Assembly (NCBI RefSeq): GCF_949628265.1 | Contig: NC_088787.1 | Span: forward strand, 27,022,501-27,086,500 | Reading direction: 5' to 3' | Length of the DNA: 64,000 bases | Source: Cloeon dipterum | Lineage: Eukaryota > Arthropoda > Insecta > Ephemeroptera > Baetidae | Shown: positions 36,441-57,300 of the stretch, piece after piece | How positions within the stretch are numbered: position 1 is the first letter of the stretch | How the letters are laid out: every line of letters begins with the position of its first letter | The notes under the pieces: model-generated | Seen by the model: only the letters and a program-made list of their open reading frames with translations | The model's database searches: none | What the model was told of the DNA's origin: nothing | Program-made: the position numbers and the translations under genes

Positions 36441-39400
36441 ATGGCGAGCTCAAAAAAGATAAAAGTGAGACCGCAGCACACCACACTTTTTATCAACCTG
36501 CGCCTACTGATGTCTTGTAACAACCACTCTGACGCACTGAAGACTCTTTTGACCGAGGTTCGTTTTCGGGGAGTTGAAATTAACCATTATTCTAAGGTTT
36601 AAATTGTTTTAGGATGTTTTTGTGCTGCCGAACAGCAACAAGAAGGCTTCCAACGAAGTTATTTATTTTATCCTAAATGTTTGGAGCAAGGAAAAATGTG
36701 CCGAAAAATTCAAATTTTGCTGGCCGGTGCTTGACAGAAAGCAGGAATCCCAGTTCCAGCGCGCCGCCTGCACTTTATTGCAGGAGATAAAGAGCGTAAG
36801 TATATACTAAAGATTTTTATGAGAAATAACCTTATGTGTTAATTTTTTCTGAACACAGGCTCATCCGGACGCAAATTTGCCTACGGTATCACTTGCTCTG
36901 CTTCTTCAACCCGGAGGGGACAAATACTGCAATTTTCTGCTTCGCCTAACAATGTTTTTATTAGCACACTCCATGAAAGGTAAATTAAAATTTAAGCGTG
37001 TGTTATTCGGAAGTGATACATTCACAATCTCCTTTCCGCCTCTAGTTGGTGATTTGAAAGCCCGGCCCAATGTCAAGTCTGAAGAATCTCTGCGCTCACT
37101 TATTGAGGAAACCAAAAGAGACGTAAGCTGTTTGCTGCTGTCTGCTGCCCAGAGTCATGCCAACGCCGTTGCCACCTTTTCACAAGCTGAGGAGTTTAGC
37201 AGGTTTACTATTGATACGTTAACTAGAAACATCCCATGCTAAATAAGTGCAATCCAAATATAGGAAACTCAAAGAGTGGTGGCACTCATGGGAAGAGTGC
37301 GAAGAATCTGCGCTGTTGGAGTTCCGGAAGGAGGCCAGTTTGCTTGATGTTCCAGATGATTTTAAAGAAAAAATGTTGGAAAATCCTAGCAACTTTAAAG
37401 GTTTTCTAATTTTCTCTTGTAATGTTTGAGCTATTCTAACCATTCATAACTATTACAGATTTTGAGCTGGTTGTGATCGATCTCCGCAATGAAGTAGAGA
37501 AAATCTTAAGCCTCCTTGAAGGATCCCAACATCAAACTTACCAAAGAGCCAGCAGTGCGAGTCCAGAGGGGAAGCCTAGCTTTGTTAAGAAAACCCTAAA
37601 CTTGGAGAGACTCGCACTTGTCCGGCAAAAGCTGCTCAAAGGTCTGAGCGAGCTAACGCTGCTTCTGGACGAAGGGAAACGCCAACCGAGCTGGCTGATA
37701 CACTCGGAAGTTGCGAGTCTTGAACTTGCAATGCAGGAAGGACAAACTGCTGATTTCATGGACCAGATGGAAGACAAACTGAGGTCTGCCAAACGGAGCG
37801 GCACTCGCATTGAAAGAAGAAAGTCTTTCGCGCCCTCAAATGGTAACTTATTTGTATCAAACTCTCGGGTTGTTTTAACACTTTTCTTAGTATTCAATTT
37901 CAGTCCTTGTATTTTGCGTCAAGTTCCCCCTACACCTTCATTTGACATCAACCATCTGACTGCCAACGGAGTGGATTGTTCTCCATTCTGGATGAGATAT
38001 CAGTCTTTACCTGGTAGGTGCTTTTAATTAATTAGTAATAGTTTTTCTTTCTTCTTAAGATTAAATTAAATCATTGTTTTACCATGGATGCGATACACAC
38101 ACATGTTAGTTTGAAATGAAGCGCTAAAGGAATTATTATTTGATTGTGCTATCAAATCTACCTAGTCAGTTGTCAGTTTAATATTTTATCAGTTAATCTT
38201 CAAAAACTACACCACCCACCTTGCCTTAACTATTATTTTGCCTGCTGGGACAGAGAGGGAGGTTCTTACATCAATGATAGGCTTGGAATTTATATCATAA
38301 ATTAGGGCTTCTACCATCAGCCAAAATTAATAGGCAACAGCATCTGTAATTTCATTAGAGAATATATGATGAGATTGCTAACTGCCTAAAAACTCAAAAT
38401 AATGAAGAAATTTTACCAAAAAACAAGATTTATAAAAATGGTTACATAATCTATAGTTGTGAGAATTTAAAAGCTGAATTCTGCTAATTCCACGTCAAGT
38501 GATTGTTCCATTATTACGTAAATAGTTCGCTAACATTAAAAAATGTCTAATTTCTCCTTAATGTGATTTTCTTGAATTTTTAATATTTATAAATGCATGA
38601 CCTGTGTTGGATAGATAAATTGAATTGAAAAAAAAATCATGACTCTAAGCTGTCAAAATCACACGCAGACTTAAGTCGGTTGATTTTGACTTGATTGATC
38701 TTAAGACCTTGAGAGTGATTAAGATTAATTGACCAATTGTAACAGATAGCAGTTAATTTATTCTCTGACAAAAATATCTGAACTGACATAAAATACCCAA
38801 TCAATGTCATATCAACAAACTGTTTTCTTCCTAATAAAAAATGCTATCCTAACTAGACATCATCATCTTTATTTCAATTATATATGTTGCACTAATTCTA
38901 ATTTTAAAAAATGCTTGCAGATGAGAAGGAAAGTCTGGAAAGTCTGCTCAGTCGATGGAACTGTTATGATCACGAGCAGCCAGTTCTGGCAGAAGAAAAC
39001 CTTTCTCAGGCCGCCATCCCGTCTGGAAGCCAAATTGTGCCTGCTATCAAAGCGGAATCTGCAACCCCCATCGAGAAGTTTCGCCCTAAAGAGCATAACA
39101 CACCACTCAATCCCCTGCAGCTGGATCGCAACAGTTTGATCCTTACACCTTCAAACGGTTCAGAAATGGCTATCCAAATGGAAAAATCGTTTCACGACAT
39201 AAGTGGAGAAGAGCTTCCCTTGGGCGACGTCAGTTTGCTCGAATTAGCCGAAATGCACTTAACATTTGACTCAGCTTCAGTCTCTCCTGAGCCTCTCCAG
39301 GTGCAAAAGGTGTTAAGTCCTCCACCAGCTGCTGAACCTGAAGAACCTGTTGATGTCAAGCCCGATCTGAGCAGTCTGCTCAAACGGCTACAAGCTATCA

Positions 39401-40131: not shown

Positions 40132-41925
40132 ATGCTGCTCCCGCTGATCGTCGCATCCATCGTCCTGCTGGACGCAGCGTTTGCCACTCCACACCAAACT
40201 GGACAAGGTAATGGTCTTTATTCTGGTCACTCTCTAAACTGCCCACTTAATATTAAAGTCCTGGATAGTGTCTACTATTTTGTTACTAAATAATTGAATC
40301 GTTTATTCAAGTAAGCTGTGTAGATATTATCGAAATTTATTTTAACACTGGCTTGATGTTGAAATTAATTTTTTGAATTGAAAGCTTTCTCAGAGTAAAA
40401 TGCATTTTAAAAGGAACCGCATATATGTTCTAACAATTATGTCGCAAGCAAATAAACCTCAAACAATTTTGTTTTTTAATAATATTGAATCTTAAAAGCA
40501 GGGAACTACCTGCAAAATTTACTTTCAGAAAATTCCAAGAAGAATTATATCTTGAGTAAAGCTTTTATGTTGGGGCTATTCTTGTTCTTGTTGCCTTAAA
40601 GAATTTGTTTCTTTCAACACTAAAGTCTAACACAGCAGGTTTTTATATTTCAAATCCTATTAAATTTTGTACTGAAAGTATAAGAAGTTTTGGTTTTTTT
40701 AGAATAATTGAAAGCTCCTCGCATCTTTTCACGTTTCAAACCCTAAGTTCATAGCGCCCATTTTATCACACATCATCGAAATATTTATATTAATGTGATT
40801 TTTTTATCTAAGGGGACTCTATGCTCCAGTTTAATTATTATTGTTGCAACGCTTATCAAATAATGCAATCATTAAATACCGTCTGCCTGGATTAAAATCA
40901 TGAATTAGAAATTTTTAATTTTTAGAAATTAAATAATCACTTGAAAAAAAAATCGCTTAAAAAATGGTGTGCATGTGTAGCTGATACTGAAGCCGAGGCG
41001 ACTCAAGCGTCAACAATAATTTAGGTGTGTTCTTTCCAGAAGACTCTCCGTGGAGTAGTGCCGCCCATCAGGGTATCCGTTTGTCCACCTCTTCTCTGCA
41101 GCCTAGGCTGAGCATCCTCACTGAAAAGCGGCATCAGAGCATGCTGCCCTACCACCCGGTGGTGCGTTTCCGCGGTCTCGGCGGACCCGGCGAAGCTTGG
41201 CCCGACGCAGAGCTGATCACCAGCAACTACCGCCCGATGCTGGGTGACTCTTTCATCGCCAACCCCACCGATCTGGATGCCATAATTGATATTCTGAAGG
41301 AGGCAAACAAAGGTGATATTAGTTTAAATGTCGACACTTAAGGTTGGTTGCTTCATATTATAATTAAAACGGCCGTCGTCCTCGTTGATGTAAAAACCTT
41401 AAAAACTTCACCATTTAATCATTCATTCCAACAAGTTTCGGCTATTTGGTGGATAACAATAACTTGTAATTACTGACCAATATAATTATAATGACAGATT
41501 AAAGGAGGGGGGTTTTAAAGCAACAAGGATTAATTCCATTATAATAATATTATGAAATGGTGATATTAAATTTAATTTTGGTTAATTTTTCTAAATTAGC
41601 CTGAATTTGAAATTATTCATTATTTTTTATTCAAATGAGGCACTATAAAATATTTTATTAATTACGATTTAATGCAACATGATGCGTTATAATATTTTAA
41701 ACCAACACTAGAGTGAAGCTTAAATAAATTATTGATTTTCATTGCTATCACTATCAACCACATCAGAAAAAAATTAAAAAATATTAATCTATTTCAGGTG
41801 CTGTCAATTTTGACTCTGACCTGATTAGTCTTAGTGCTGGCGACCTCCTGAGGGCATTAGAGGCCAAATCTAAAGGACCGGAAACCCAGCCAAAGGGTAT
41901 TAGGTTTGGAATAAAACGCAGGTGA
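40132..41925 (+). CDS. Small secreted, neuropeptide-like precursor
   Basis: Three exons: 40132-40207, 41040-41312 and 41798-41925; both introns phase 1; 158 residues. The ATG is the first after the predicted start site. A clear signal peptide (MLLPLIVASIVLLDAAFA) is followed by a cysteine-free chain with one internal dibasic site (TEKR|HQSM, residues ~55-56) and a C-terminus ending GIRFGIKRR. The segment after the dibasic site (HQSMLPYHPVVRFRGLGG...) and an amphipathic acidic stretch (NPTDLDAIIDILKEANKG) are the distinctive parts. Size, signal, dibasic sites and small exons with phase-1 introns suit a peptide-hormone precursor, but it matches no family I know. The terminal RFG is separated from KRR by Ile, so a standard RFamide is not produced directly. 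The stop overlaps a donor-like CAG|GTGAAC, but a poly(A) signal 118 bp later supports termination here. Confidence 0.72.
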
Positions 41926-42042
41926 ACACTGAACCGCTTAAATATGATACAAGTGTCAATATAATTTTTAAATGTGTAGTGAAAGCTTTTTCTCCACAGT
42001 GGATTTGTTTGTAAGGGAAATACACTAGTACGTGTAACATAA

Positions 42043-42048
42043 AATAAA
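42043..42048 (+). terminator. Poly(A) signal of the secreted peptide gene
   Basis: AATAAA about 118 bp downstream of the stop, supporting exon 3 as the terminal exon. Confidence 0.65.
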
Positions 42049-42232
42049 AAATATCATAGTCCGCCTAACATACAAATTTATTTCATCATCCCAACAAAAC
42101 TCGTTTGCAAGAAGTTTCACAAAAAAGAAACGAAACACGTCAAACAATGCAATAAAGTGAGCTTAACATTAAAAAGCGTAAAATATTTCGTTGAAATAAC
42201 AATTTATATTTTGGAAGAAGAAGCGATGACAG

Positions 42233-42320
42233 GCTCTAAAGCGTCATGGATGAGTTTGGTTCTAGTCATGGATTCAAAGACTCATGGGACTAAAATCAAA
42301 CCCATCAAGCACACTCGAGC
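42233..42320 (+). repeat. Hairpin repeat copy 1
   Basis: First copy of an ~88-nt structured motif. Basal helix GCTC/GAGC, possibly extended by AAGCG/CGCTT outside it. Conserved loop strands AAGCGTCATG and AAGCACAC flank a ~19-bp stem (GATGAGTTTGGTTCTAGTC with GACTAAAATCAAACCCATC) capped by CATG...CATG. Strand is given in the orientation in which all copies read. Confidence 0.8.
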
Positions 42321-42377
42321 GCTTGAAGAAACGAAAGATGAATGTGGCTGCAGTCAAAGTGTGGTGCTATCAAAAAT

Positions 42378-42650
42378 ACACAGCGCAGTTTGCCAAGGGG
42401 TAAAGCAGAAATGCCCAGAAAGCGTAATGGATGAGTTAGTCTCTAGTCATGAATTCAAATGACACATGAAACTAGAAACAAACCCATCAAGCACACTCGG
42501 GAAAGTTTGCGTCAGCAAAAGCAGTATTACCTGTGGAAAGACAATTATTTTAAATTTAACCTCACACGAGTTGAATGTTCTCGTATTGATTAAAATTTAA
42601 AAACATTTAATCCGATTTTATTAACAGAAGAACAATAATAGTAGCAACAA
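42378..42650 (+). repeat. Segment duplicated at 47276-47585
   Basis: Starts CAGCGCAGTTTGCCAAGGGG and includes hairpin copy 2 and its downstream module (ending ACCTGTGGAAAG). It then runs through AGTTGAATGTTCTCG to ATTAACAGAAGAACA. The same succession occurs 4.9 kb to the right with scattered substitutions and small indels. Confidence 0.8.
42414..42501 (+). repeat. Hairpin repeat copy 2
   Basis: Basal helix CCCAG/CTCGGG (one bulge). In the long stem, column 11 is T-A where copy 1 has a G-T wobble. Followed by the conserved downstream module ending in ACCTGTGGAAA (to about 42540). Confidence 0.8.
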
Positions 42651-42803
42651 TTTGTTTTCAATATTCACATTAATACACATACAATTTGAAATGTTACTCA
42701 TTTTTGCGTATATTCCACATTGTACAATTTGATAGGGTAGTTTTTATTAGGTTAAAGACAAGTAAGCAACAAAGACACAAAAAAAATAGATGGAAGTGAA
42801 ATG

Positions 42804-42890
42804 TCCAGAAAGCGTCATGGATGAGATTGGTTCTAGTCATGGATTGAAACACACATGAAACTAGAATCAAGCCCATCAAGCACACTTGGA
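42804..42890 (+). repeat. Hairpin repeat copy 3
   Basis: Basal helix TCCAG/CTTGGA. The long stem closes with one mismatch plus the shared A-C pair. Upstream module (ACAAAGACACAAAA... GATGGAAG) and downstream module (CATCAGCTAAAGC...ACCGTGGAAA) are both present and carry a further possible GATG/CATC pairing. Confidence 0.8.
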
Positions 42891-43116
42891 AAATTTTGCA
42901 TCAGCTAAAGCAATTTAACCGTGGAAATAAAGTTAGATTCAAGTAAATCTCAGACAGGTAGTTGTTGTCTTAAATTTACGTTGAGCAGTAAAACATTCTG
43001 CTATTAATCCAAATTAGATCAAATTAATTAAATGTTATATCTATTTTTACCAATAGAATAACAATCATGATTAAATACATGCAAGTAACAAAGACACATA
43101 AAATTAGTTGAAAATG

Positions 43117-43203
43117 CCCAAAAAGCGTCATGGATGAGTTTGGTTCTAGTCATGGATCCAAATACACATGAAACTAGAATCGAACCCATCAAGCACACTT
43201 GGA
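43117..43203 (+). repeat. Hairpin repeat copy 4
   Basis: Basal helix CCAA/TTGG. The stem partner contains the single change CGAACCC, tolerated as a G-T wobble. Downstream module ends CTCCGTGGAAC (to about 43245). Confidence 0.8.
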
Positions 43204-43724
43204 AATTGTTCATTGACCTAAAGAAGTATTCTCCGTGGAACCACAAATTATTTCAAATTAAAAAAAAAAGAAAAGCAACTGTCATATTAATTTCACAGTA
43301 AAAAAACAACATAAAAATAATCCAAATAGAAAATAATGCAAATTTAATCTAAATCGATGAATGTAAAGATGTAACAAAGTAAAAAAAATAAATTTAAAAA
43401 TTAACTTTAATTTACGTTTGATAATTAATTTAATTAATCAAAGAAGCACCCTTTCGATCTTTTTATGCTAGCTTCGACTTTGAAAAAATGAAAAATCCAT
43501 TTGCGGTTAATTTAATTATTATAATTTGATACATTTTTGCAAAAGGATAATCTATCACAGGTAGTAGCCATTGAAAAATCGATTAATAACCAGAAATGAT
43601 TTTGGTCAGAACTGTGGTGCATTGCATACCTCATACACCCTTAGCAACCTCTGTGAGGTGAGTTTTAAAATAATATTGCATCAAATTTTGCTACAAAGCA
43701 CTTAGCACAAAAAAAATAATGGAA

Positions 43725-43762
43725 GGACCCCTCAGCTAAAGCAGAATTAACCGTGATGTTAA
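43725..43762 (+). repeat. Orphan downstream module of the hairpin family
   Basis: CCTCAGCTAAAGCAGAATTA followed by ACCGTG matches the module that normally follows the hairpin, but no hairpin precedes it. Probably a remnant of a deleted copy. Confidence 0.55.
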
Positions 43763-43821
43763 AAATAAATAAATCAAAAATAATTAACACAAACACAAAA
43801 AATTAAGATGGAAACGAAAAT

Positions 43822-43911
43822 GCTGGGAAAGCGTCATGGATGAGTTTGTCTCTAGTCATGGATCAAAGAAACGCATGAAACTAAAGTCAAACCCATCAAG
43901 CACACTCCAGC
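43822..43911 (+). repeat. Hairpin repeat copy 5
   Basis: Basal helix GCTGG/CCAGC, a complete double-sided replacement relative to copies 2-4. Stem column 12 is C-G instead of T-A. Loop strands are unchanged. Confidence 0.8.
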
Positions 43912-45944
43912 GCTGCAAGCAGAGCAATTCCACTTTTTCAAGCATGAATTTCAAAAGAAAACAGTCACAAAGAGACAAACAAAAAACGAGCGCAAAAGCA
44001 CAAAAAGTTAGTCACAAGTAGGTATGATTTGTGAATAGCAGGCATTGACAAAAAATAAAAATCTTTTGGGGGGGGGGGCATTGGCATCCAGAATGACAGC
44101 ATCAACAGTCGAAATAGCTTGGAAAGTTTCATTCACACGGCAAACTATTATTTTTAAGTCCCAAGCTCACTGGACGCTGTTGGGGTTATATGAGGGTAAG
44201 GGCCTACCCGCCAAATATTTCTGGGAAATGAAAACCTTTTGTGTGGAAGATTGGAAGCAGCGTTGGGATTAGGGGAGCAGAAGCATAAAGCCTTATTTTA
44301 GTTGAACAACGTGGTAAAATCGACCTTCCCAGAAAGAAATCTTTCTAGAAGTATTTTGTTAGCAGCGCAACTGAATTTTCGCTTTATTTCACCCTACTGG
44401 AGCTGCACCTGTCAGAAGGGGGGGAGGGTAAGATAATACTTGTTTGTTCGCTGGGTTTCCAAAATGCCACCTACTGCTCGGACTATTCCTTTTTATGTGC
44501 AAGCCAAGCAATCCCCAACAAGCATTCATCAAAATGACAGCGAGGGGAAAAAAGGTCATTCAACGCTTTCCAATAATTATTCTTGACATGTTGTCAAGCT
44601 CATCCTGGGAAGCCAGATGAGCTTTTCTCTCTATGGAAAACTAAGTTACAATAGTTGGTTTTGCCAACTGAGAATCAATATTCAATATTTTCGGCACTGG
44701 AAGCTACTTTTCTAGACAGAATATATAACAAATTTCTCTCTGTTTTCAATCAAATAATTATTTAGGATTCAAATTAACAATTTGAGTGAAAATATTAACA
44801 ATGGACCAAGATGAAATATCGAGGGCGATGTTTTCTTTATCTCTACTTATGGGGTGAAATACAGAGAAGATCGCGTGGGAAATAATATTTGAAAGAGCGA
44901 AAGAACGGCCATTATAACAGCGCAGCGAGATAGCCCGCTGAATGTCAATGTAGGCAACCTGTTGCGTTAGATCGTTGCGAGGGTTGCGTGCGAGTCAAAA
45001 GCGAGTTGGGCCGGGCGGGCAGGAAAACGAACTTTAGTAAATATCCCACTAACTCGAGAAGCGCACTTGGAATTCGTGCTTCAACCTCAAGCGGAATTCA
45101 AAGAATACACTTTTCCCGACCGAATAATTCGAGGAATTGATCAGAAAGAGATGAACGCGGCAAAAGGCAAAAATCTAGCGATCAGAGGCACGCATAATTC
45201 GAATTTGGTAGCTTCTCGGACCGGGGGTCAGCAGTAAAACCGGTGGTGAAAATAAAATTAAAAAAGAAAGTGGCTCAGCGAGTGTGGGAAAGCAACCGCC
45301 CCTGTTGCGAACGAGGGTTAAACACGTGGCTGCGTGCCGCCCGCATCTGCACCAAAAACCCGCTCGAAAAATTATGCATTATTTCAAGTTGCAGCCGCGT
45401 AATGGCGAAATGACTCAGAGTGGAGTTAGAGAAGAGGAAAAAATATCATGCGGGCCACTCTCGCGTTTTCAACCCCGAAATTGAGTACTGCAACTTTGTC
45501 AAGATTGAGCGACAGTGAATTTAATTCAAGCTATGATTTTGCTATTGTAAATAGGAAAGATATTTTTTAAATTTTAGCAAAGGAAATATAATTGCGAATT
45601 TCTAAGATAAACACCAGCCGGTCGCGACAGCGCCTCGGGAGCCGGAAAGCGAAGCAAGTTGGCCACGGCGGACGATGATTATTACTTTAATTTCCATCGC
45701 TGGGCGGGTGAATCACGAAAGCCCGAGAATAAGGCAAGTACAGCAGTCGGCCCGGCAACTGAATGATAATAATAATCCGAAATGCGGCCCGGCCGCAATA
45801 AATTCCACACAATATAATAATTTCAGGTAGAGAGGAGTATAACGCAACCTTGAGGCGAGCTCGGGAGTAACGAATCGAACGTGAATATGATGCACGTGAC
45901 GTCACGGCGTCTTCTCTCAGCGTCTTGTCCGGAGGCAATGCAGA
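43912..45944. other. Noncoding region between hairpin copies
   Basis: No gene supported. An 11-G run lies at about 44070-44080. The 44880-45480 and 45600-45900 parts are GC-richer with CpG-containing blocks, possibly a promoter or regulatory region without an identifiable gene. Confidence 0.4.
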
Positions 45945-46033
45945 GCTCTTGAGCGTAATGGATGAGTGAGGATCTAGTCATGGATTCGCAAACTCACATG
46001 TACTAGACTCGCACCCATCAAGCACACTCGAGC
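45945..46033 (+). repeat. Hairpin repeat copy 6 (isolated, in different flanks)
   Basis: Basal helix GCTC..GAG/CTCGAGC. Stem column 8 is G-C instead of T-A. The core is well preserved, but upstream and downstream modules of the other copies are absent and the surrounding DNA is GC-rich and unrelated, so the ~88-nt hairpin itself is the conserved unit. Confidence 0.78.
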
Positions 46034-46893
46034 ACGAAGAGACATGGAGAAAAACAGCCCAGGGTCGCGCTACTCGCAAATTTGCTGGAAAAATTTATCA
46101 ATGAACGGGCCCCCAAAAGACTTGACAAGAAGAGAGGTGAAAAACAATAATAACACGCGCGAGTGTCCGAGAGTGGTACAGAGAGTCCAGAACCAGAAGG
46201 TACGGTCAGTTATTTGCCGGCCTGAATCAACAGGTAGCTAGGAAATTGTGTACTTCACCATTGCTCGGCTCAGCTGCTGAAGGCGCCCAGGTGAGACGTG
46301 TGCTTCTCGTTGCTGATCGGCGGAGAGAATGATTGTAGAAATCACGGCTGTACTTGACCAAGACTCGGTGTCGTCGGTTGATTGCCCTCCACCGCTGGCC
46401 TCCGTCCAATCGCGCTGATCCACCGGTGGACAAAGTCTCTCCCATTGGTCCAACCTTTGGCGCGTCGAAGCGCTCATTGTTGAAAATTTGCTCCGGCAAA
46501 AGAGTTTTTCCCCTTCCCGGCTGCCCGATCTGCTCAAGCAGGCGCTTCCCCTTCACCACGTGCGAGGAAATTTACTTATGCTCGCGTTTCACATACCTGT
46601 TGCCGCTGCCCTGCATCTATAACATTCAACCCACAGCCGACCAAATTGATTTCCAGACAGTGATGTACTTAATTTCGTTCTTGGTTAAAATTTTGGAAAT
46701 GAAATACTTTATACCTGAGAATTATTAATTACGTGGAAGTCAAGGAACTGACAATTTTTTTTGTTACGACGATGGATGGGGTAGAAAAATTAAAACAGTG
46801 AAAAAGTGCAGAAAAAATGCGACGTATAAAATAAAAACAGAGAGAAATAAAGATTATAAAACCAAAACAATTTTAAGGCATTAGGTAATTTAA

Positions 46894-46960
46894 AAGAGCG
46901 TCATGGAAAAGTTTAAATCTAATATTTATTTTATTCAAAAACTCATGAAACTAGAATTAT
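46894..46960 (+). repeat. Hairpin repeat copy 7 (degenerate)
   Basis: GAGCGTCATGG and ACTCATGAAACTAGAAT are recognisable, but the two stem halves no longer pair and the 3' end is lost. A decayed copy. Confidence 0.5.
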
Positions 46961-47002
46961 TATTGATTCAAATGAACCTCAAAAATATTGGAAATACAAG
47001 AT

Positions 47003-47330
47003 TTTATTAGCAGAAGAACAATAATTAAAGTTATTAACCACGATGGTAGTGACAACAATTACACAAAAATTAGATGGATAAGTCCAAGAAGCGTGTTTCA
47101 AGAGTTAGAGTCTAGTGATGGATTTGAATATACATAAACAAGAAACAAACCCTTCACGCACACTTGGAAATTTTTTAATCGGCCAAATCAGGCTGGGGAA
47201 AATACACGAAGATTTAAAAAGTAAAATACCACTACATTCGAAAATATAAATTAGGAATACAAAATTGCTGAATTTTCAGCGCAGTTTGCCAAGGGGTAAA
47301 GCTGCGAAATGCCCAGAAACGTAATGGATG
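47003..47330 (+). repeat. Segment duplicated at 47525-47860
   Basis: Shares with the 47.5-kb segment the run from AGAAGAACA..AATTAAAGTT through ACCACGATGGTAG, hairpin copies 8/10 and the start of copies 9/11. Offset is about 522 bp, making a tandem direct duplication. Confidence 0.8.
47083..47168 (+). repeat. Hairpin repeat copy 8
   Basis: Basal helix TCCAAG/CTTGGA (6 perfect pairs). Stem column 3 is A-T where other copies have T-A. The 5' loop strand has drifted to AAGCGTGTTTC. Confidence 0.7.
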
Positions 47331-47585
47331 AGTCAGTCTCTTGTCATGAATTCAAATTACACATGAAACTAGAAACAAACCCATCTAGCACAATCGGGAA
47401 ATTTTCGTCAGCAAAAGCAGCATTACCTGTGGAAAGACAATTAATTTAAATTTAATCTCAGACGAGTTGAATGTTCTCGAATTGATTAAAATAAATTGAA
47501 AATTAAAAAAAAAATTAATCCGATTTCATTAACAGAAGAACAGTAATTAAAGTTATTAACCACGATGGTAGCGACAACAATTACA
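47276..47585 (+). repeat. Segment duplicated from 42378-42650
   Basis: Right-hand copy of the duplication described at 42378, including hairpin copy 9 and its downstream module. Confidence 0.8.
47312..47398 (+). repeat. Hairpin repeat copy 9
   Basis: Basal helix CCCAG with TCGGG. A few extra stem mismatches relative to copy 2, with which it shares flanks. Downstream module ends ACCTGTGGAAAG at about 47435. Confidence 0.75.
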
Positions 47586-47604
47586 CAAAAATTAGATGGA
47601 TAAG

Positions 47605-47690
47605 TCCAAGAAGCGTGTTTCAAGAGTTAGAGTCTAGTGATGAATTTGAATATACATGAACTAGAAACAAACCCTTCAAGCACACTTGGA
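47605..47690 (+). repeat. Hairpin repeat copy 10
   Basis: Tandem-duplicate sister of copy 8, with the same basal helix TCCAAG/CTTGGA. Confidence 0.72.
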
Positions 47691-47835
47691 AATTTTTTAA
47701 TCGGCCATATCAGGCTGGGGAAAATACACGAAGATTTAAAAAGTAAAATACCACTCTATATTCGAAAATATAAATTAGGAATACAAAATTTGCTGAATTT
47801 TCAGCGCAGTTTGCCAAGGGGTAAAGCTGCGAAAT

Positions 47836-47903
47836 GCCCAAAAACGTAATATGGATGATTCAGTCTCTTGTCATGAATTCAAATGACACACATGAAACTA
47901 GAA
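47836..47903 (+). repeat. Hairpin repeat copy 11 (3'-truncated)
   Basis: Sister of copy 9. Reads CCCAAAAACGTAAT... as far as CATGAAACTAGAATTC and then diverges, losing the 3' half of the stem and the basal helix partner. Confidence 0.6.
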
Positions 47904-48024
47904 TTCTGAACTAGAAGCCTGAAAACAAATTTCTGGGAAATCCCGGCTTGCTGGACAAACTACCCATGCACAAATGTCTAAAAAATAATTTGGAGTTAAA
48001 AGTGTCAAATTTAATTTTAAACTA

Positions 48025-48276
48025 ACAAGGGAAACCTTGGGTATGTTCCGCCCCGCGAATCGGAACACTCGCCGCCAATTTTTAGTATGAAGTGCAGTGG
48101 TTTTTTTAATATTTCAGTTCCACGTGGACACTTGGAAAATCTTTGCAGCTCTGTTATTCTTAAACTATGCTAGATAGAAGAACTTTAATTGGTGCCCGTT
48201 TCTTACTGTACTTAATACTAAAAATTTGCGGCGAGTATCCGTTTCGCCGGGCGGAACATATCCAGGGTTCCCTTGT
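48025..48276. mobile_element. 252-bp fold-back MITE
   Basis: Terminal inverted repeats of about 75 bp: the left end starts ACAAGGGAAACC and the right end finishes GGTTCCCTTGT. Matching internal parts include GTTCCGCCC..GCGAA and CTCGCCGC. A ~100-bp noncoding centre separates the arms. No clear target duplication can be seen. GC-richer than its surroundings, indicating a separate origin. Confidence 0.82.
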
Positions 48277-50259
48277 AAAAACAATAATCCTTTTCTTGTT
48301 TCCCTTCCAAGGTGCGCATTTTATCAAATTTTACCATCGGAGCAGTTTCAGACGAATTTGCGGACATTAGGAGGTTGATTGGAAATTATTCGGGATTTTT
48401 TACGTGACACTTTTATTTTCATAACGAATTACTGCTTATGGTAATAAAGATGTATAGACACTCTCTATGACAAATGTGAAAATCATGAGAAATTTTCAAA
48501 CTCTGGGTGGCCAGTTTTTTTTCCTTAAAGGACGCAAAAAGAGGCTCAAGCTGTCAAATACAGGAAACTCACTTCAATGAGCTTGCCCCAGAGGAATGTT
48601 CGAATGTTGAATTTTGAAGACCATGGGTGTTCTCAGCGAAAAAATATCTTGAAACATACTATTCACTCGCAGGTATACAAGTTAACAATAGTCGCCCCCT
48701 AACAAAGAGGGCTTAGAGCGTCAACAACGCCCCTGAGGGATCTGAGAGATTGAAATTCCTAAAGAAAATGAAAAATATATAGTTCTCATTTCGGAAGCCT
48801 TTTTGTTGAGAAAATGTCAGATTCTCTCTTTATGCGCTCGCAGTTTCCCACACCAAGAGGGCCAAATATTTTTGCCCTCTACACTTCAAATGGTTTGACC
48901 AGGTCAACTTAAAAAAAAATATTTGAAAAGAATGAAGAGTGATAGAGTGAATGTATAGCAATTTACGTTGGAACTCTAGTAATGTTACTAACATAATTTT
49001 TTGAGCTCTGCTCAGCACTTCCCGCGGGCTATGAGCTCACTTGTGTGTCCCAGGTCCTATAATAACACAATACATCGGAGCGGATATCTCATGGAACATA
49101 TGTTGCCCGGATGGCTTGGAGCTCTCGCCTCCCTACACGGAGGAAATGTCGTCTTTAATGGAAACATCATACATATTATATGTCCCTAAAGCCGCTGGAA
49201 AGATGCGAAAATCAGCAAGTGGCGAGTCAGTGCTGGTGCGCCTCCCAGCCTGTTGATCTATTTGAGCATTTTAAGAGTCTAAATTAACCACCTTTTGCCA
49301 TCTTTGGCGTTTGGGCAGCTACTATTAGATCCCAAACTGCTCAAATAACTCCCACACTGCTTTGACCCTCGTGAGAATGCCCTAACAATGAGAGCCAACG
49401 AGCTGGTTTAAAATTTCAAATCTGAATGAAACTTAGCAAAATTACTATCTGAAAGTGATATAATGGGATAATAAGAAATTTTTCGAATTTTCTTCTTAGC
49501 TTTATCTTAAATGAATTGTAAATTTAATTTTTAAAATAGATTTTAAGTCAATAATAAATTAAACGTAAATATAATAGTATAACGTTACTCCAAGCCTTGT
49601 CATGGATAAAAATACATAAGACACTAGAAAACCTAAGTAGTATTTTTAACGTTAATGAGCTGACATTATTTATATTTCTGTTTATGAAATGTATTAAATA
49701 TTTCTAATTTTGTCTCGATCATGATTAATTTAGGGCTAAAGTACAGTGGCCGAAACTATGTACCTGGTCGAGGTGAAATAATATTTCGAATATTCTGACA
49801 TCACCATCAAGAGGTCAAGAAGTTGAAGAAGTCCGATTTTCTCTTCAAGAATAAAATTGACTGGCACCTTGCACCTTGCTCATTGCTACTCACTCATTGT
49901 TAGCTAAACAGAATTGAGTAGGAATAAAAAATATAAACCGGTTATTACAGATAAAATATTAACTTAATTTATGTCCAGCAGCTGTAAAGTAAACGATAAT
50001 TATTTGAAATCTTTAATCCTGGAAATTTATTTTGATAACTATATAATGAAATTAAATATTGAAAAGAATTGTAAAGTTATAACAACTGAAGAGTACACAC
50101 ATATTACCGGTTTGTTTTGGTCTCTCCATGATCATCTGGATCTGGAGATCCCCGCCCCCTTATAGAACCATAACTTCTTCTTCTTCTGTGATCTTTGTTT
50201 AGGTTGTTTTGGTAGGCCATGGGCCGAGTCTTATCAGTTCCTCAGCATTAAAATTTAAA
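48277..50259. other. Intergenic region before HACD3
   Basis: No firm gene. A 71-codon open frame at 49041-49256 (containing GADISWNICCPDGLELSPPY) is GC-richer than its surroundings and starts near an acceptor-like TGTGTGTCCCAG, but has no recognised domain. A degenerate hairpin-repeat fragment is at 49595-49633. Confidence 0.4.
49595..49633 (+). repeat. Hairpin repeat copy 12 (fragment)
   Basis: CTTGTCATGGAT...ACACTAGAAAACC corresponds to the apical half of the hairpin. The basal part is gone. Confidence 0.4.
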
Positions 50260-52938
50260 ATGATGGAAAAATCAGAAGGAACTCTTAGCCCGTTTGTGTA
50301 CTGGGCGCAAACTGACTCAGTTGCCACCCTGAAGGTCGATCTCAAGAGCGTAAAGGTATATTAAAGCTAGCACTATCTTGCGAAACCCTTGTAAATGAAT
50401 ATTTTATGTCTTCTGCTAGGACCCACATTTGCGCATCAAGGAGGAGACAGTTGAATTTTCTGCTAACGGCGTCGGTGCCCAGGGCCTAAAACGCTATTCT
50501 TTTGCTCTTCACTTGAGTGCAGCAATTGACCCAGACGTAAGAAAAGTATTTTTTCTTAGCTTATTAAATATTCAAAAGCATTAAAATTAAAAGCAATTTG
50601 AAAGAACGGGGCATCTGATTCCGTCCACAACATGAATATCTATATAATATTATTATCATATTGGAGTGGTGACTTAATTGCAGTTCTATATTATCCCACT
50701 CAATTGGGAAATATAAATAATATCATTTTTAATGGTTTCATAAATTTAGCAACATCACTGCTTTTATATATTCTACAAATCAAGTCCAATTATGATGAAA
50801 AACAATCAGATAAGCGCATATTTATAGGTTTGTTATCTATGAGAATGAGAACCCTGATTGAATTTCTTTAGCTGCGGCTAATTACAGAAATCATATTTAT
50901 GAAAAGCAGTCGGAGTGAACATGATATCTGATTTTATTAAGAATTATTTTCAAAATCAGAAATATTTGATATTTTTTCACAATCATAGCTCCATAGTCCA
51001 TAGGCTTAAAAATAAACAAAATTTAATGACATCGCTTGCTGAAAAGTCTTGACTAAAGAAAATCAAATAATAACATCAAACTGTATGTAACCATAATCAC
51101 TGGTTAAGTACGTTAGAGAAATTTACACTACAGAATAATCTCTTCACACTTAACATTAGCAACAAAGAGTGTAATTTTTGAGGCAAAATACAATTTTTCA
51201 TATCAAATATTTTATTTTAAGCTCGTACTATTAAGCTAAATATTTTTGTTATTTTTAGAAATGCTCTCTAAAGGTGACCGACAGGCAGGTCGATTTGACT
51301 CTTTGTAAAACGAAGAAGGCCTGGTGGCCAAGACTCACCGCCAAGCCGCAGAAACCGGCATGGCTGAAGGTAGATTACTGTGCTTGTTGCAAAACATTTT
51401 GCAAAACTGACAATATTTTAACAGATAGACTTTGACAAATGGAAGAGCGAGGAGGATTTTGACGAGGATGAAACGCGTGACATTCGTAGAGACTTTCCCG
51501 AGATTTACGACAAACTGCAAAAGGAGGAACTTGGATATAGGAGAGGTGTCTTTGCCTTTCTCATTTTGCTCATTTTTGGCTAAATTTTGAAAACTCTTTC
51601 CCTTCCAGAGAGTGCAAAGAAGATTTATCTAGCAATTTACAATCTTCTGCAGTTCATTGGCTTTTCCTACGTTTTAATTGTCATGTACATCAGGCATTAC
51701 AAAAGTGGTGCAGGTAACTTTACCTTTGAATTTTTGGCGCTAGAAAATAAATATTCGGTCTAACAGAGTCCATGGAAGGTACTTACGAAGCAGTCGGCCC
51801 AGCAATGAAGTTCATCCAGCTGATGCAGTTTTTGGAGGTGTTGCATCCAATGTTTGGCTACACCAAAGGCAGCGCGCTCACACCATTCTTGCAAGTGACA
51901 GGAAGAGCCATAATTCTGTTTGTCATGATAGAAGCGGAGCCTAGGATGCAAACAAAACCTGTCGTCTTTTACCTCTTCCTCGTCTGGAGCATGATTGAAG
52001 TAGTCAGGTATACAAAAATCAAGTATTTTAATAGCACCTGTGGATAGTGTTATAATATAGTTACAGCTCAGTTTGACGAGAAATTACTCTCGACTTGGAA
52101 GTTGTGTTGTTCTGATTTTTGCTACTACATCAGCATGTTATTTCTTTCTATTCTTATATTTATTACTAAAACATAATTTTATTTAAATGCACATTTTAAT
52201 GAATATAAAAATTTTCAACCACATGACACATTATAATTCATAAGAAGTGACTAGATTGATGGTTTCAATGAGCTGCAAATTTAACCAGTCAATTATGGCC
52301 AGCGAATAATAAAATGTTAAGATTTTTTATTTTATTATCTGATGAATTATTAAATTGAGTTTTATACGAATTTTTACTAACATTTTTCAAGTTATTTTTC
52401 CAAAAATGACGTTAATATTTCGCACAATTTTCAATGACAAAAAGAGGCTGTAACTGAGACGAGTGTCAGCTTCTTGTGATATCTGATGACCAAATACCCT
52501 CAGGTACCCATACTATATCACCCAGCTGTACAACATGGAAAATTCCATTCTCACATGGTTGCGCTATACTATCTGGGTACCACTGTATCCTCTGGGATTT
52601 TTGTGCGAAGGAGTTGTAATCATTAGGTAAGCATCGATAAAAATGCCCCGATACTTCAGCTGATAGTTTACTATAATTATTAGGGACATCCCATATTACG
52701 AAGAGACCAACAGATTCAGCATTTCCATGCCAAATAAGTGGAATTTCTCCTTCTACCTGCCGACAGTGATGCGCATTTACTTGCTATTTCTGTGTGTGCC
52801 AAGTAAGGGTAATTTTATTTAAAATAATCGATTACAATTTTCATTTCACTTCCAGTGATGTACTTCATGATGAGTCACATGTACAGGACCAGGGTGAAGA
52901 AGCTGGGACCGAAGAGCTGGATCCGAAAGTACAATTAA
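50260..52938 (+). CDS. HACD3: Very-long-chain (3R)-3-hydroxyacyl-CoA dehydratase 3 (HACD3/PTPLAD1)
   Basis: Nine exons: 50260-50355, 50420-50536, 51259-51369, 51425-51545, 51609-51713, 51767-52007, 52504-52626, 52684-52802 and 52856-52938; all GT/AG, phases agree; 371 residues, close to the family length. Residues ~9-105 form the p23-like CS domain (FVYWAQTDSVATLKVDL ... WWPRL). A charged linker (~110-148) follows, then the PTPLA/HACD membrane domain with about six helices. The conserved LRYTIWVPLYPLGFLCEG contains the Tyr292 and Glu299 expected for catalysis, with the family's Y-x6-E spacing. The enzyme removes water from 3-hydroxyacyl-CoA in the third step of the ER very-long-chain fatty acid elongation cycle. 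The CS domain suggests protein partners as well. Two adjacent ATGs open the frame; the first is chosen. A C-terminal basic tail (RTRVKKLGPKSWIRKYN) faces the cytosol. Confidence 0.93.
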
Positions 52939-53259: not shown

Positions 53260-54300
53260 TTAGATCCAGTTCTTGAAGAACAGTCTCCTACGGTAGTCCC
53301 TCTCGGAGGCGTGAGCGTAAAACTCCCTCGAGTGAGGCTCAACCCACGCGTCTTCAGGCAGGCTCTTGTAGACCTTCTCACCGTAGTAAGTGCCCACTTC
53401 CCATCCAGGCACATCGGCCATCAACTTGGCCTCTTCATCACGATTGCGTCTCAGCTGCTTGAGCTTTCTGAAATAATTTTTTTAACTTAAAAGGTGCTAA
53501 AGGAAGAGACAAAAATTGTAATGGACTTGTTGTGGTGTAGCCACAAGTTGAAAATAACAAGATTTTATCGCAAGTTGGCTGTTTCAATGTTTCAAACAAC
53601 ATTGATTTAGCCACGTAAAAATATCACCACTGGGCACTGACCAATTAAATATTTTATTTTTAAAGATTTATTGGTTATTCTTCTGCCCAGCTGTTAACCA
53701 AAGGAATCAATCTGATTAATTTCATTTCAATTATGCACTACTTTTGTAGATTTGGAACAGGGTTGGTTAACACTGATGAACAGAATTCATTACTCTCTGT
53801 CCTTCTCAGCTGTGAGCAGAGGTGTCAGGGCCAAATATGCACTCCGTCTCTCAACTCGGTTCCTCCTGATTTGTTTACTGGCTCTGTAATATTCAAACAG
53901 ACCATAGGAAGTGATTGCTACAAATCCAGCGATGAGACCAACGCCTGAAATCAGAGCAAGAAGCATGCACATAGATAAGCAAGTCACACCCTAAAAATAA
54001 AGCACATGCAAATTATGAAAGTTTTGTACATAAAAAATGATCTGACAGGTTCAAAACACAAATTTTAAGGAATCAATTTGTGAATCGATATCAGCTGGTG
54101 GCAGAATGTCTTTCATTTTCAAAACTTGATTTTTTAAAGAAATATTCGGAACAATCAAGTAAAATGCGTATCAAAATGTAGCAAATTTAATGTTAATGAT
54201 ATTTACCGCTGAAATAGGACTTGGCCGGGTTCCTGACGTAAGGAATCGACCGATAGCCGCCCGAAGGCGGCATGTCCTGCTTCTTGACCGCCGTCGCCAT
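53260..54300 (-). CDS. NDUFA13: NADH dehydrogenase 1 alpha subcomplex subunit 13 (GRIM-19)
   Basis: Three exons on the minus strand: 54300-54207, 53944-53794 and 53467-53260; phases 1 and 2 match; 150 residues (human 144). The N-terminus MATAVKKQDMPPSGGYRSIPY matches the family's KQDMPPPGGYGPIDY. Exon 2 encodes the single membrane helix (GVGLIAGFVAITSYGLFEYY) followed by the RRNRVERRSAYLALTPLLTAEKDRE segment. Exon 3 carries LRRNRDEEAKLMADVPGWEVGTYYGEKVY and an aromatic C-terminus. This is an accessory subunit of mitochondrial complex I in the membrane/hydrophilic-arm junction. In animals it is also reported as a cell-death regulator (GRIM-19). It lies tail to tail with HACD3. Confidence 0.95.
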
Positions 54301-57300
54301 CTTTGTTTTGGCAAGAAGAGAAGAAAAATAAAAGACAGACGGTGCAGTCGATATTTTGCTGCTGAATGGCGCGAAATTAGCCTTTCGCCGCCAGCATTGA
54401 CGGAGATACTAATATTGTAGTAGAAGTAGTGGCCAAAATTTTTTTAATTTCACAACTAATAGCGAAAATAGATGTGAACTACTACAGCTCTTTGTTATTT
54501 CAAAGAACATTAAAAATATTTTTTTTTCAAACTGAACTGTCAGTTCAATAAAACTGAATTTCCTGCTTATTGTTTGCACATCATTCCATTTATTCACAAT
54601 GCGTGACTTTGACAGCTCATTCTGCTAATTTTCTTGCTTATACATTTTTCGCATTTCCTCTAAAGCATATGTTTAATTCATACTACATACAATTACACGG
54701 CGAATAAATTAAACAAGAAGTATATTATATTGTCATATTGTTTCACATCATCGCGTATGCTGGTATAATAGCGTGCCGCGAACCCAATCTTGATAAAACT
54801 CTCGCGCCGACCACTATATTTTCTTTTGCGACACGTAATAATTATACCAACAAACTTTCCATGCAGAATTTGTTGCCCTTGAAATATTGATACATTCACG
54901 AACGGAATAACCAACATTTCACTCCGCGCAGATCGTTCTCGAGAAATGTAAACTCGGCACAGTCTCCCTGGTAACAGAACAACATATTATGCATGCAACC
55001 ATTTCAATAAAACTTAATTTTTATCAGCTAGTTAAGCTGCGGTATCAGCAGCCGAACATCTGGAGGTTATAGGCGGCGGCAGTTGAGAGGAGGTGCCTCA
55101 CCCTCGGGGTCTGCAGGTTGCTCCAGCGCCAGACACGGCTCGCGATGTCAGGTGAGGACAATAAAGAGGCGGCTTTGCCAAAGAGCACGACGCAGGCATC
55201 GTTATTGCGATAAAACGCGATTAAAGGTATTTCTCGTAGATCCCAGAATAAGTCTAATTTTACAATAAATTTCCACTAGACCACTTAAAATTGTGTACTG
55301 TCGTAATGCAAATATAATTAATCTATTTAAAATAGTCCCTAAAAATTCGGCGGTGGCCCTGAAAAAAAATCATTGTATTTGATTCCAATGTTTTAAAAGT
55401 AAAAGGTGAACATACATTTTTTATTAAAGCAGAAGGAAACTGTTTCGTCACCCAGAAAACACCTTTCCTGCATTTTAACGCGAAATTAAGAGCACAGAAC
55501 AAGGCAATTGACTGTTGCGCAGCTGAAACTCATTTTGCGCACTTTCCTTGTAACAAGCATCGACCCGCGTGCGCCTCCCCAGAATTCATATTCGGCGAAA
55601 AATTCAGCGAGAGCTCGATCGGCCGAGATTTCGCAACAATTCGATTACGCACAGGAACCAGAATCGAGAGCAGGGCTTCGGCTTCCGAAAAACGGCTCTG
55701 CCTCATCTGTTGGGCTGTCCCTGTTGCTATCGGGAAGACAGAGCGTGTGCATGTGTTCGCGCGAGCGAGAGCGAGAGAGAGAAAATTTCCTCTCTTCTGC
55801 GAGCAGCTGTTGTTGGTTTATTTTTTGCCTGGTGTGTGGGCAGGTGAGGCAGGCTGGGTATCAGGCGGACACGCTCTCAGTCGTTCAGTCGGTACACATA
55901 CCTGGGACCCTGTCAGGTCTGCTTTTGTGCGTGCCGAGAAACACTGGGGGCCCCTTGGGTCTTCAGTCTGATAGTTGGAAGATTTTCAATATGAGGTGTG
56001 GGAAGAATATGAATTTAGAGTTTTATTAAAAACAAATTAATATTCATAATGTTGGGTATATTTTGGCGCAGACTTGGCCTACATTTTAGGATATTAAGCG
56101 AGACACAATGATTGCTGTTAAAATTAATTATTTTTTCTCAGTTATAATCTCGAAAAATACAAAAATGTTATTTTAAACGGAATCAAAACACTACATTTCA
56201 AAAACTTCTAATTGCTGATCAAATATAAATTATACCCAAATTATGGAATATTGCATTCCATTAAATATTAATTAAAAATAAAATGCTACGCCATTGAACA
56301 TTAAAAGTTATAAATTATATAACGAAATGTAGCTTGTTTCTTACTTAATTGTATAACTCTGTCCCAAATTTAGCGCTGGGCAGTGCTAAAACAATTAGTG
56401 TTGAAATAGTCTGGGCACGAATATTAAATTAGCGGCGATAGGGGCGTTGATGTGGGATTTTGTAAGAGGAAATCGATGTGGATTTGTTTACAAGAGCAGG
56501 GATAAATATTATGCCGAAATTGGAGACAGGATGTGGCGAAAATGAGTGCAATATAATTTTGCTGGCGGTCCTTGTGGGTTGGGCATTCTCGAGAGCCGGC
56601 TTTATATTAATATTTCACTGTTTTTAGTGCGGTGCGGTGATTGAGCGCCGAAAGTGGCTAGATAAAAAGTTTGCCGTAAATTTAGGCAGCGCGCGCGTGG
56701 AGAGTGACCTTCTCCTTGGCGCTAGCGAATGAAGGGGGTCGAGGATTTCTCGAAATTGCACATTGTTCGCCGATAAATGACTCCGTGTGTGTGTATATGT
56801 ATACGGGAGAGATAATAGATGATTCGCGATTTTGTACCGTGCGCCTACGCTCGGACGTGTTCATTTAAAGGCCCTCTAACAAATTGACATTTTCAGCGTT
56901 TTCATGTCGAATATCTGGGCGCGCGAGCAGGAAAGCAGGCATCAAAATAATACACGCTGGCGGAGCTTCGTTTCTCTCCAGGGTCAGAGCAATTATTGGA
57001 TGAAAACACATAAAGTATTATTTAATTAATCGCATAAGCAACACTTAATTTGGAACGGGCAATTAACTCATTTTCGGCTTTGAGATTGATCTCGTCGTTC
57101 GCGCCAACTCATGCGAACGCAATTTTTCGGCCAACAGTTTAATTGATGATGATAAGAAAAAACTTCAATTTTTTGCACTCTTAAAAATTGCCGTGCTCAA
57201 CGCCACGCCCACTTGCTTCTCGAGGGCAGGTAGATATCCTCTCCGACCTGATGTCAGGGCAGCTCACGATATTCTTATATGTGTGCCTTTTATTTCAGCA

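Follow-up and report, generated by a model that had tools for sequence, protein, structure and literature searches.

In a 64-kb window of the Cloeon dipterum genome (the whole stretch analysed, C2:27022501-27086500 of a 190-Mb assembly in 10 contigs), we observed nine full hairpin copies of ~90 nucleotides (nt) each (c1 to c6 and c8 to c10), all in one orientation and spanning 42233-47693 (5.5 kb), which very probably represent tandemly duplicated mir-279 microRNA genes on the minus strand. Positions refer to the window unless a contig (C1 to C5) is named. A first-pass annotation, made from the letters alone, had counted about twelve same-orientation copies in 7.4 kb. The repeats and their orientation were confirmed, but three of the twelve reported copies (c7, c11 and c12) are degenerate or partial. 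The full copies share the basal helix, internal loop, long stem and apical loop that had been described.

Table 1. Hairpin copies, tandem units and neighbouring coding features (z, folding z-score against shuffled sequences; R1, covariance model built from the array copies; 3p, 3' arm).
Feature	Positions	Strand	3p seed	RF00754 (bits)	z	Remarks
c1	42233..42322	-	GACUAGA	55.7	-4.96	mir-279 hairpin; 3p UGACUAGAACCAAACUCAUCCA; cut-off 56; copy c1' at C2:2042225
c2	42414..42504	-	GACUAGA	59.7	-5.57	mir-279 hairpin; over cut-off
c3	42804..42893	-	GACUAGA	51.3	-3.91	mir-279 hairpin
c4	43117..43206	-	GACUAGA	59.1	-3.08	mir-279 hairpin; over cut-off
c5	43823..43913	-	GACUAGA	57.3	-4.62	mir-279 hairpin; over cut-off
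c6	45945..46035	-	GACUAGA	66.6	-4.50	mir-279 hairpin; 3p UGACUAGAUCCUCACUCAUCCA; top Rfam score, E 9.4e-12
c7	46880..46985	-			-0.02	degenerate remnant without hairpin; visible in repeats and alignment; missed by R1 at E<=1
c8	47083..47171	-	CACUAGA	27.9	-2.67	diverged hairpin; E 0.034
c9	47311..47401	-	GACAAGA	50	-2.72	hairpin
c10	47605..47693	-	CACUAGA	42.4	-4.56	hairpin; tandem duplicate of c8
c11	47836..47926	-			0.33	tandem duplicate of part of c9, other half missing, no hairpin; R1 25.7 bits
c12	49596..49627	-			0.03	doubtful; possible fragment of apical part; R1 10.9 bits, E 0.56, model positions 30-61 of 90
tandem unit 1	47000..47374	.				c8 plus most of c9; 94.8% identity with 47522-47903 (self blastn)
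tandem unit 2	47522..47903	.				c10 and c11; second unit of ~382-bp tandem duplication (self blastn)
PTPLA-domain exon	51751-52044	+				Pfam
GRIM-19/NDUFA13 exons	53260-53481 and 54193-54408	-				
weak HAUS6_N match	36853-37239	+				20.6 bits, cut-off 26.4

The plus-strand text resembled the reverse complement of miR-279, which served as a lead only and was then tested with Rfam. In the 64-kb window, four matches exceeded the gathering score, all of them to the mir-279 precursor family RF00754 (gathering score 56 bits), on the minus strand and over the whole model (1-87 of 87). These correspond to four of the nine full copies (c2, c4, c5 and c6). A permissive scan of 41.5-50.5 kb at E<=1 returned 17 matches, nine of which were minus-strand mir-279 (E 1.3e-12 to 0.034); seven were weaker plus-strand mir-279 matches at loci already matched on the minus strand, and a single mir-44 match was dismissed as chance (E 0.84). 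Since RF00754 matches the hairpins end to end, on the strand opposite to that first read, the claim of an undescribed RNA family falls. The family is a known microRNA family, present here as a locally expanded same-strand array with three altered seeds. The membership of c1, c3, c8, c9 and c10 rests on close alignment with c2, c4, c5 and c6 and not on the cut-off. Taken together, we put the probability that the hairpins form a cluster of mir-279 genes, duplicated in tandem on the minus strand, at roughly 93%. No prior description of the array was recognised among the literature matches listed, which mostly do not cover subscription papers and so are not proof of absence.

The strand assignment was examined by score and by energy. 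RF00754 scored higher on the minus strand at all seven loci matched on both strands, and R1, searched at E<=1, also favoured the minus strand at 9/9 full copies, R1 itself being built from minus-strand rows. Minimum energy was lower on the minus strand in ten of the twelve copies and on the plus strand in two (c3 and c4). We then compared folding with that of dinucleotide shuffles (n=200). On the minus strand, all nine full copies folded beyond the shuffles (z -2.67 to -5.57); the real fold was equalled by 2/200 shuffles for c4, 1/200 for c8 and 2/200 for c9. A stable single hairpin with paired arms was thus observed in nine of the twelve reported copies and was absent in the other three, c7, c11 and c12, which folded no better than shuffles. 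The first-pass annotation had proposed to look for covariation: in 13 hairpins, 12 of 26 stem pairs showed two-sided changes with pairing kept, against a shuffle mean of 3.9 and with 0/500 shuffles as high, a count biased in favour of the structure, which had itself been taken from the alignment being scored.

Conservation along the hairpin was highest at the seed. The family seed GACUAGA was present on the 3p arm of six of the nine full copies and of all four hairpins found elsewhere in the genome; the remaining three full copies carry altered seeds (Table 1). The inferred 22-nt 3p product is identical in c1 and c4. Mean pairwise identity among the nine copies was 91% for the seed, 80% for the 3p arm, 79% for the 5' (5p) arm, 74% for the 5' basal part, 68% for the loop and 64% for the 3' basal part. 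The arms are thus more conserved than the loop, contrary to the view that the apical loop is among the most conserved parts. The internal-loop strands that had been singled out as conserved, AAGCGTCATG and AAGCACAC, proved to be the lower-stem sides of the precursor, beside the arm ends. Across the 13 hairpins of the genome 14 columns were invariant, nine of them in the seed and CUC block of the 3p arm and five opposite, in the 5p arm. In four paralogue pairs, picked as near relatives after the fact, 3/88 sites had changed in the 3p arm versus 16/144 in the 5p arm and loop (Fisher p 0.047).

The genome was then searched; these searches score the best candidates only (57 of 14160 for RF00754), and all counts from them are lower bounds. 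At E<=0.001, RF00754 gave at least 13 matches, comprising eight in the window cluster, an opposite-strand match to c6, two on C3 (21.20 Mb), one on C2 at 2.04 Mb and one on C5. The same family gave no matches at E<=0.001 in 14 control genomes. Copies elsewhere, which had also been proposed as a check, therefore exist as four mir-279 hairpins outside the window, and the genome holds at least four mir-279 places: the array, an incomplete segmental copy at a distance of 25 Mb, the C3 pair and the single C5 hairpin. A pattern for the mature arm had eight exact matches in the genome, all within mir-279 hairpins, and five matches with one mismatch, of which two were c3 and c9 and three lay elsewhere; the backward control had two. 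The two C3 hairpins lie ~110 bp apart with family-like 3p arms, UGACUAGAUCCAUACUCAUCAA and UGACUAGAUCUACACUCAUCAU, and the pair may correspond to the mir-279/996 operon of Drosophila. On C5, a single mir-279-like hairpin was observed at 2042-2125 of C5:2055600-2060000 (46.6 bits, below the cut-off); it is possibly intronic, as its flanks resemble two exons of a coiled-coil protein.

The array itself grew by tandem duplication: one ~382-bp unit occurs twice, with 95% identity between its two copies. A genome search with the second tandem unit gave 7/7 matches within the cluster, and self-comparison revealed a further pair of segments, 42381-42639 and 47277-47547, that are 88% identical. The C2:2.04 Mb locus, around 3035-4951 of C2:2038000-2047900, is a segmental copy, on the opposite strand, of 41622-42447 (87%) and 45174-46343 (92%), identities being given without gap columns (98 and 180, respectively). 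Missing from it are c3 to c5 and one half of c2; the c1 hairpin there (c1') still matches RF00754 with 57.6 bits, and its c6 has 6- and 12-nt insertions within the hairpin. Weak Rfam matches in the same locus (mir-609, mir-5681, MIR1858, MIR6462 and mir-316) were far below their cut-offs and were taken as chance. A midpoint-rooted tree, modestly supported and with long branches joined, placed c6 outside the other cluster copies. This position hinges on midpoint rooting and a branch of support 80/86; only two of ten inner branches are starred, and they carry only the c8-c10 pair and all cluster copies minus c6 (with c1'). From its outside branching and its highest Rfam score, c6 is probably the oldest array member. 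The region around c6 is GC-rich (45001-46500; GC 0.45-0.52, CpG observed/expected 0.98-1.42, window mean 1.01), and over most of its length it matches the segmental copy at 92% identity; the GC/CpG rise might mark a promoter.

Several observations weigh against the reading as a minus-strand mir-279 cluster. Five of the nine full copies score below 56 bits (c1, c3, c8, c9 and c10), and the folding of c8 and c9 is modest. The plus-strand fold of c4 reaches -28.2 versus -27.3 kcal/mol on the minus strand, and in longer cuts the energies of c3 and c4 are slightly lower on the plus strand. The constraint tests are weak, and c2/c9 showed no 3p advantage (2/22 sites changed in the 3p arm, 3/53 in the 5' half). 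Between c1 and c1', a 51-nt perfect run covers the 3p arm within a block of 87% identity, but a 55-nt perfect run lies outside hairpins in the same duplicated block (41873-41927), and the run over the c1 3p arm is thus not unique. Finally, a 3' CNNC motif ~16-18 nt past the Drosha cut is common in animal microRNA genes, though not universal; with the 3p end taken as 22 nt, we observed CNNC at offset 16-18 in one of nine full copies (c6) and at 19-22 in seven, and c5 had neither.

In one variant of the mir-279 cluster, which can hold together with it, the array is partly dead: only c6, and perhaps c1 to c5, would be working miR-279 genes, and the rest, above all c7 to c12, duplication debris without a product. 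We consider this a serious but tentative possibility, a little short of even odds. It is consistent with the unfolded c7, c11 and c12, with the low RF00754 score of c8 and with the insertions that interrupt the segmental copy of c6. Moreover, c8 and c10 differ at 4/89 hairpin sites, a divergence similar to that of the whole tandem unit; none of these changes, however, falls in the 3p arm (0/22), and stem folding beyond shuffles is kept in all nine full copies. Copy birth and copy decay proceed side by side, and the array offers a natural series that runs from intact through seed-changed to broken copies, the flanks of the segmental copy 25 Mb away serving as a yardstick.

Two further explanations were rejected on the strand and score of the Rfam matches and on genome distribution. 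The first, that the repeats are a miniature inverted-repeat transposable element (MITE), a short interspersed nuclear element or a small retroelement with an incidental hairpin, is very improbable. The hairpins are repeated and a MITE-like foldback element (48030-48272) lies close by, but that element has at least 74 genome matches on C1 to C5, whereas the c4 hairpin used as a DNA query found at least ten places, nine in the cluster and one at C2:2.04 Mb with matching flanks. The array is therefore, among the best candidates scored, unlike a dispersed transposon; no dispersed copies with target-site duplications were found in that search, and two-sided stem changes and a known microRNA family argue in the same direction. 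The preference of the first-pass annotation for a functional hairpin RNA over a simple MITE is thus supported, and a miRNA-like precursor was among the options it named; for the ribozyme and small-retroelement options, nothing was found. The second, an undescribed ribozyme or other structured RNA on the plus strand, we regard as hardly credible: c6 and c4, the two copies folded on that strand, beat shuffles there, and the c3 and c4 energies slightly favour it, but RF00754 prefers the minus strand wherever both strands match, and the conservation peak is the 3p seed and not the loop. The lesson is to check both strands of hairpin arrays before claiming novelty.

The mir-279 cluster was then set beside known systems. 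It resembles the Drosophila mir-279/mir-996/mir-286 seed family (RF00754) in hairpin length and layout, in the 3p seed GACUAGA and in having clustered paralogues. In Drosophila, mir-279 and mir-996 share a single operon and are redundant in their roles (PMC4456407); there are two hairpins there, in contrast to nine full hairpins and three changed seeds here. In other arthropods, mir-279a-e occur in Daphnia magna (PMC6828783), reads from Thrips tabaci carry the names mir-279a-h (PMC6053560), and Apis and Tribolium have mir-9 in a cluster with mir-279 (PMC3763532). Clusters that include mir-279 members are abundant at early stages in Tribolium, where the maternal mRNAs that are cleared are enriched for GACUAG targets (PMC4691753); a link to maternal mRNA clearance has likewise been drawn for the mir-309 cluster and for mir-430 of zebrafish (PMC5637074). 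Like our array, Tribolium mir-279e~2944c and Drosophila mir-309~6 contain mir-279-family members and turn over rapidly, as members are gained, lost and duplicated. However, these early-embryo clusters mix families, whereas mir-279 alone reached the Rfam cut-off in our window. Multiplication of a single microRNA family by tandem duplication is also seen in the spider Parasteatoda, where a stretch of 50 kb holds 13 of the 34 mir-3791 copies (PMC4987109), although that is another family in another lineage.

By analogy with the family, minus-strand transcription of the cluster would give at least one primary microRNA transcript, and each hairpin would be cropped by Drosha and then cut by Dicer to yield miR-279-3p variants. 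The ~22-nt 3' arm (UGACUAGA...CUCAUCCA) would be loaded on Argonaute and repress mRNAs with UCUAGUC sites. Multiple copies would raise the miR-279 dose, and the seed-changed c8, c10 and c9, if expressed, would have different targets. It is conceivable, although we hold it to be unlikely, that the array serves as a high-dose miR-279 locus specific to this lineage and has also given rise to new microRNAs by seed change (CACUAGA in c8/c10, GACAAGA in c9), perhaps clearing early-embryo maternal mRNAs like the mir-309 and mir-430 clusters. The locus itself offers a compact case of tandem duplication feeding both microRNA dose and new seeds.

As to the surroundings, Pfam gave no match at E<=0.01 for six large open reading frames (ORFs) of the window; of six further window ORFs, four had a match and two had none. 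The cluster may be intergenic; the neighbouring coding features are given in Table 1. A plus-strand ORF of 139 aa over c1-c2 (42043-42462) was taken as chance. On its plus strand, 41873-41927 looks like the close of an open frame, perhaps belonging to a gene's final exon. In the foldback element (48030-48272), which is a MITE-like family member inserted between c11 and c12, the arms are 35 and 32 nt long with 86-91% complementarity, and the ends read ACAAGGGAA...TTCCCTTGT.

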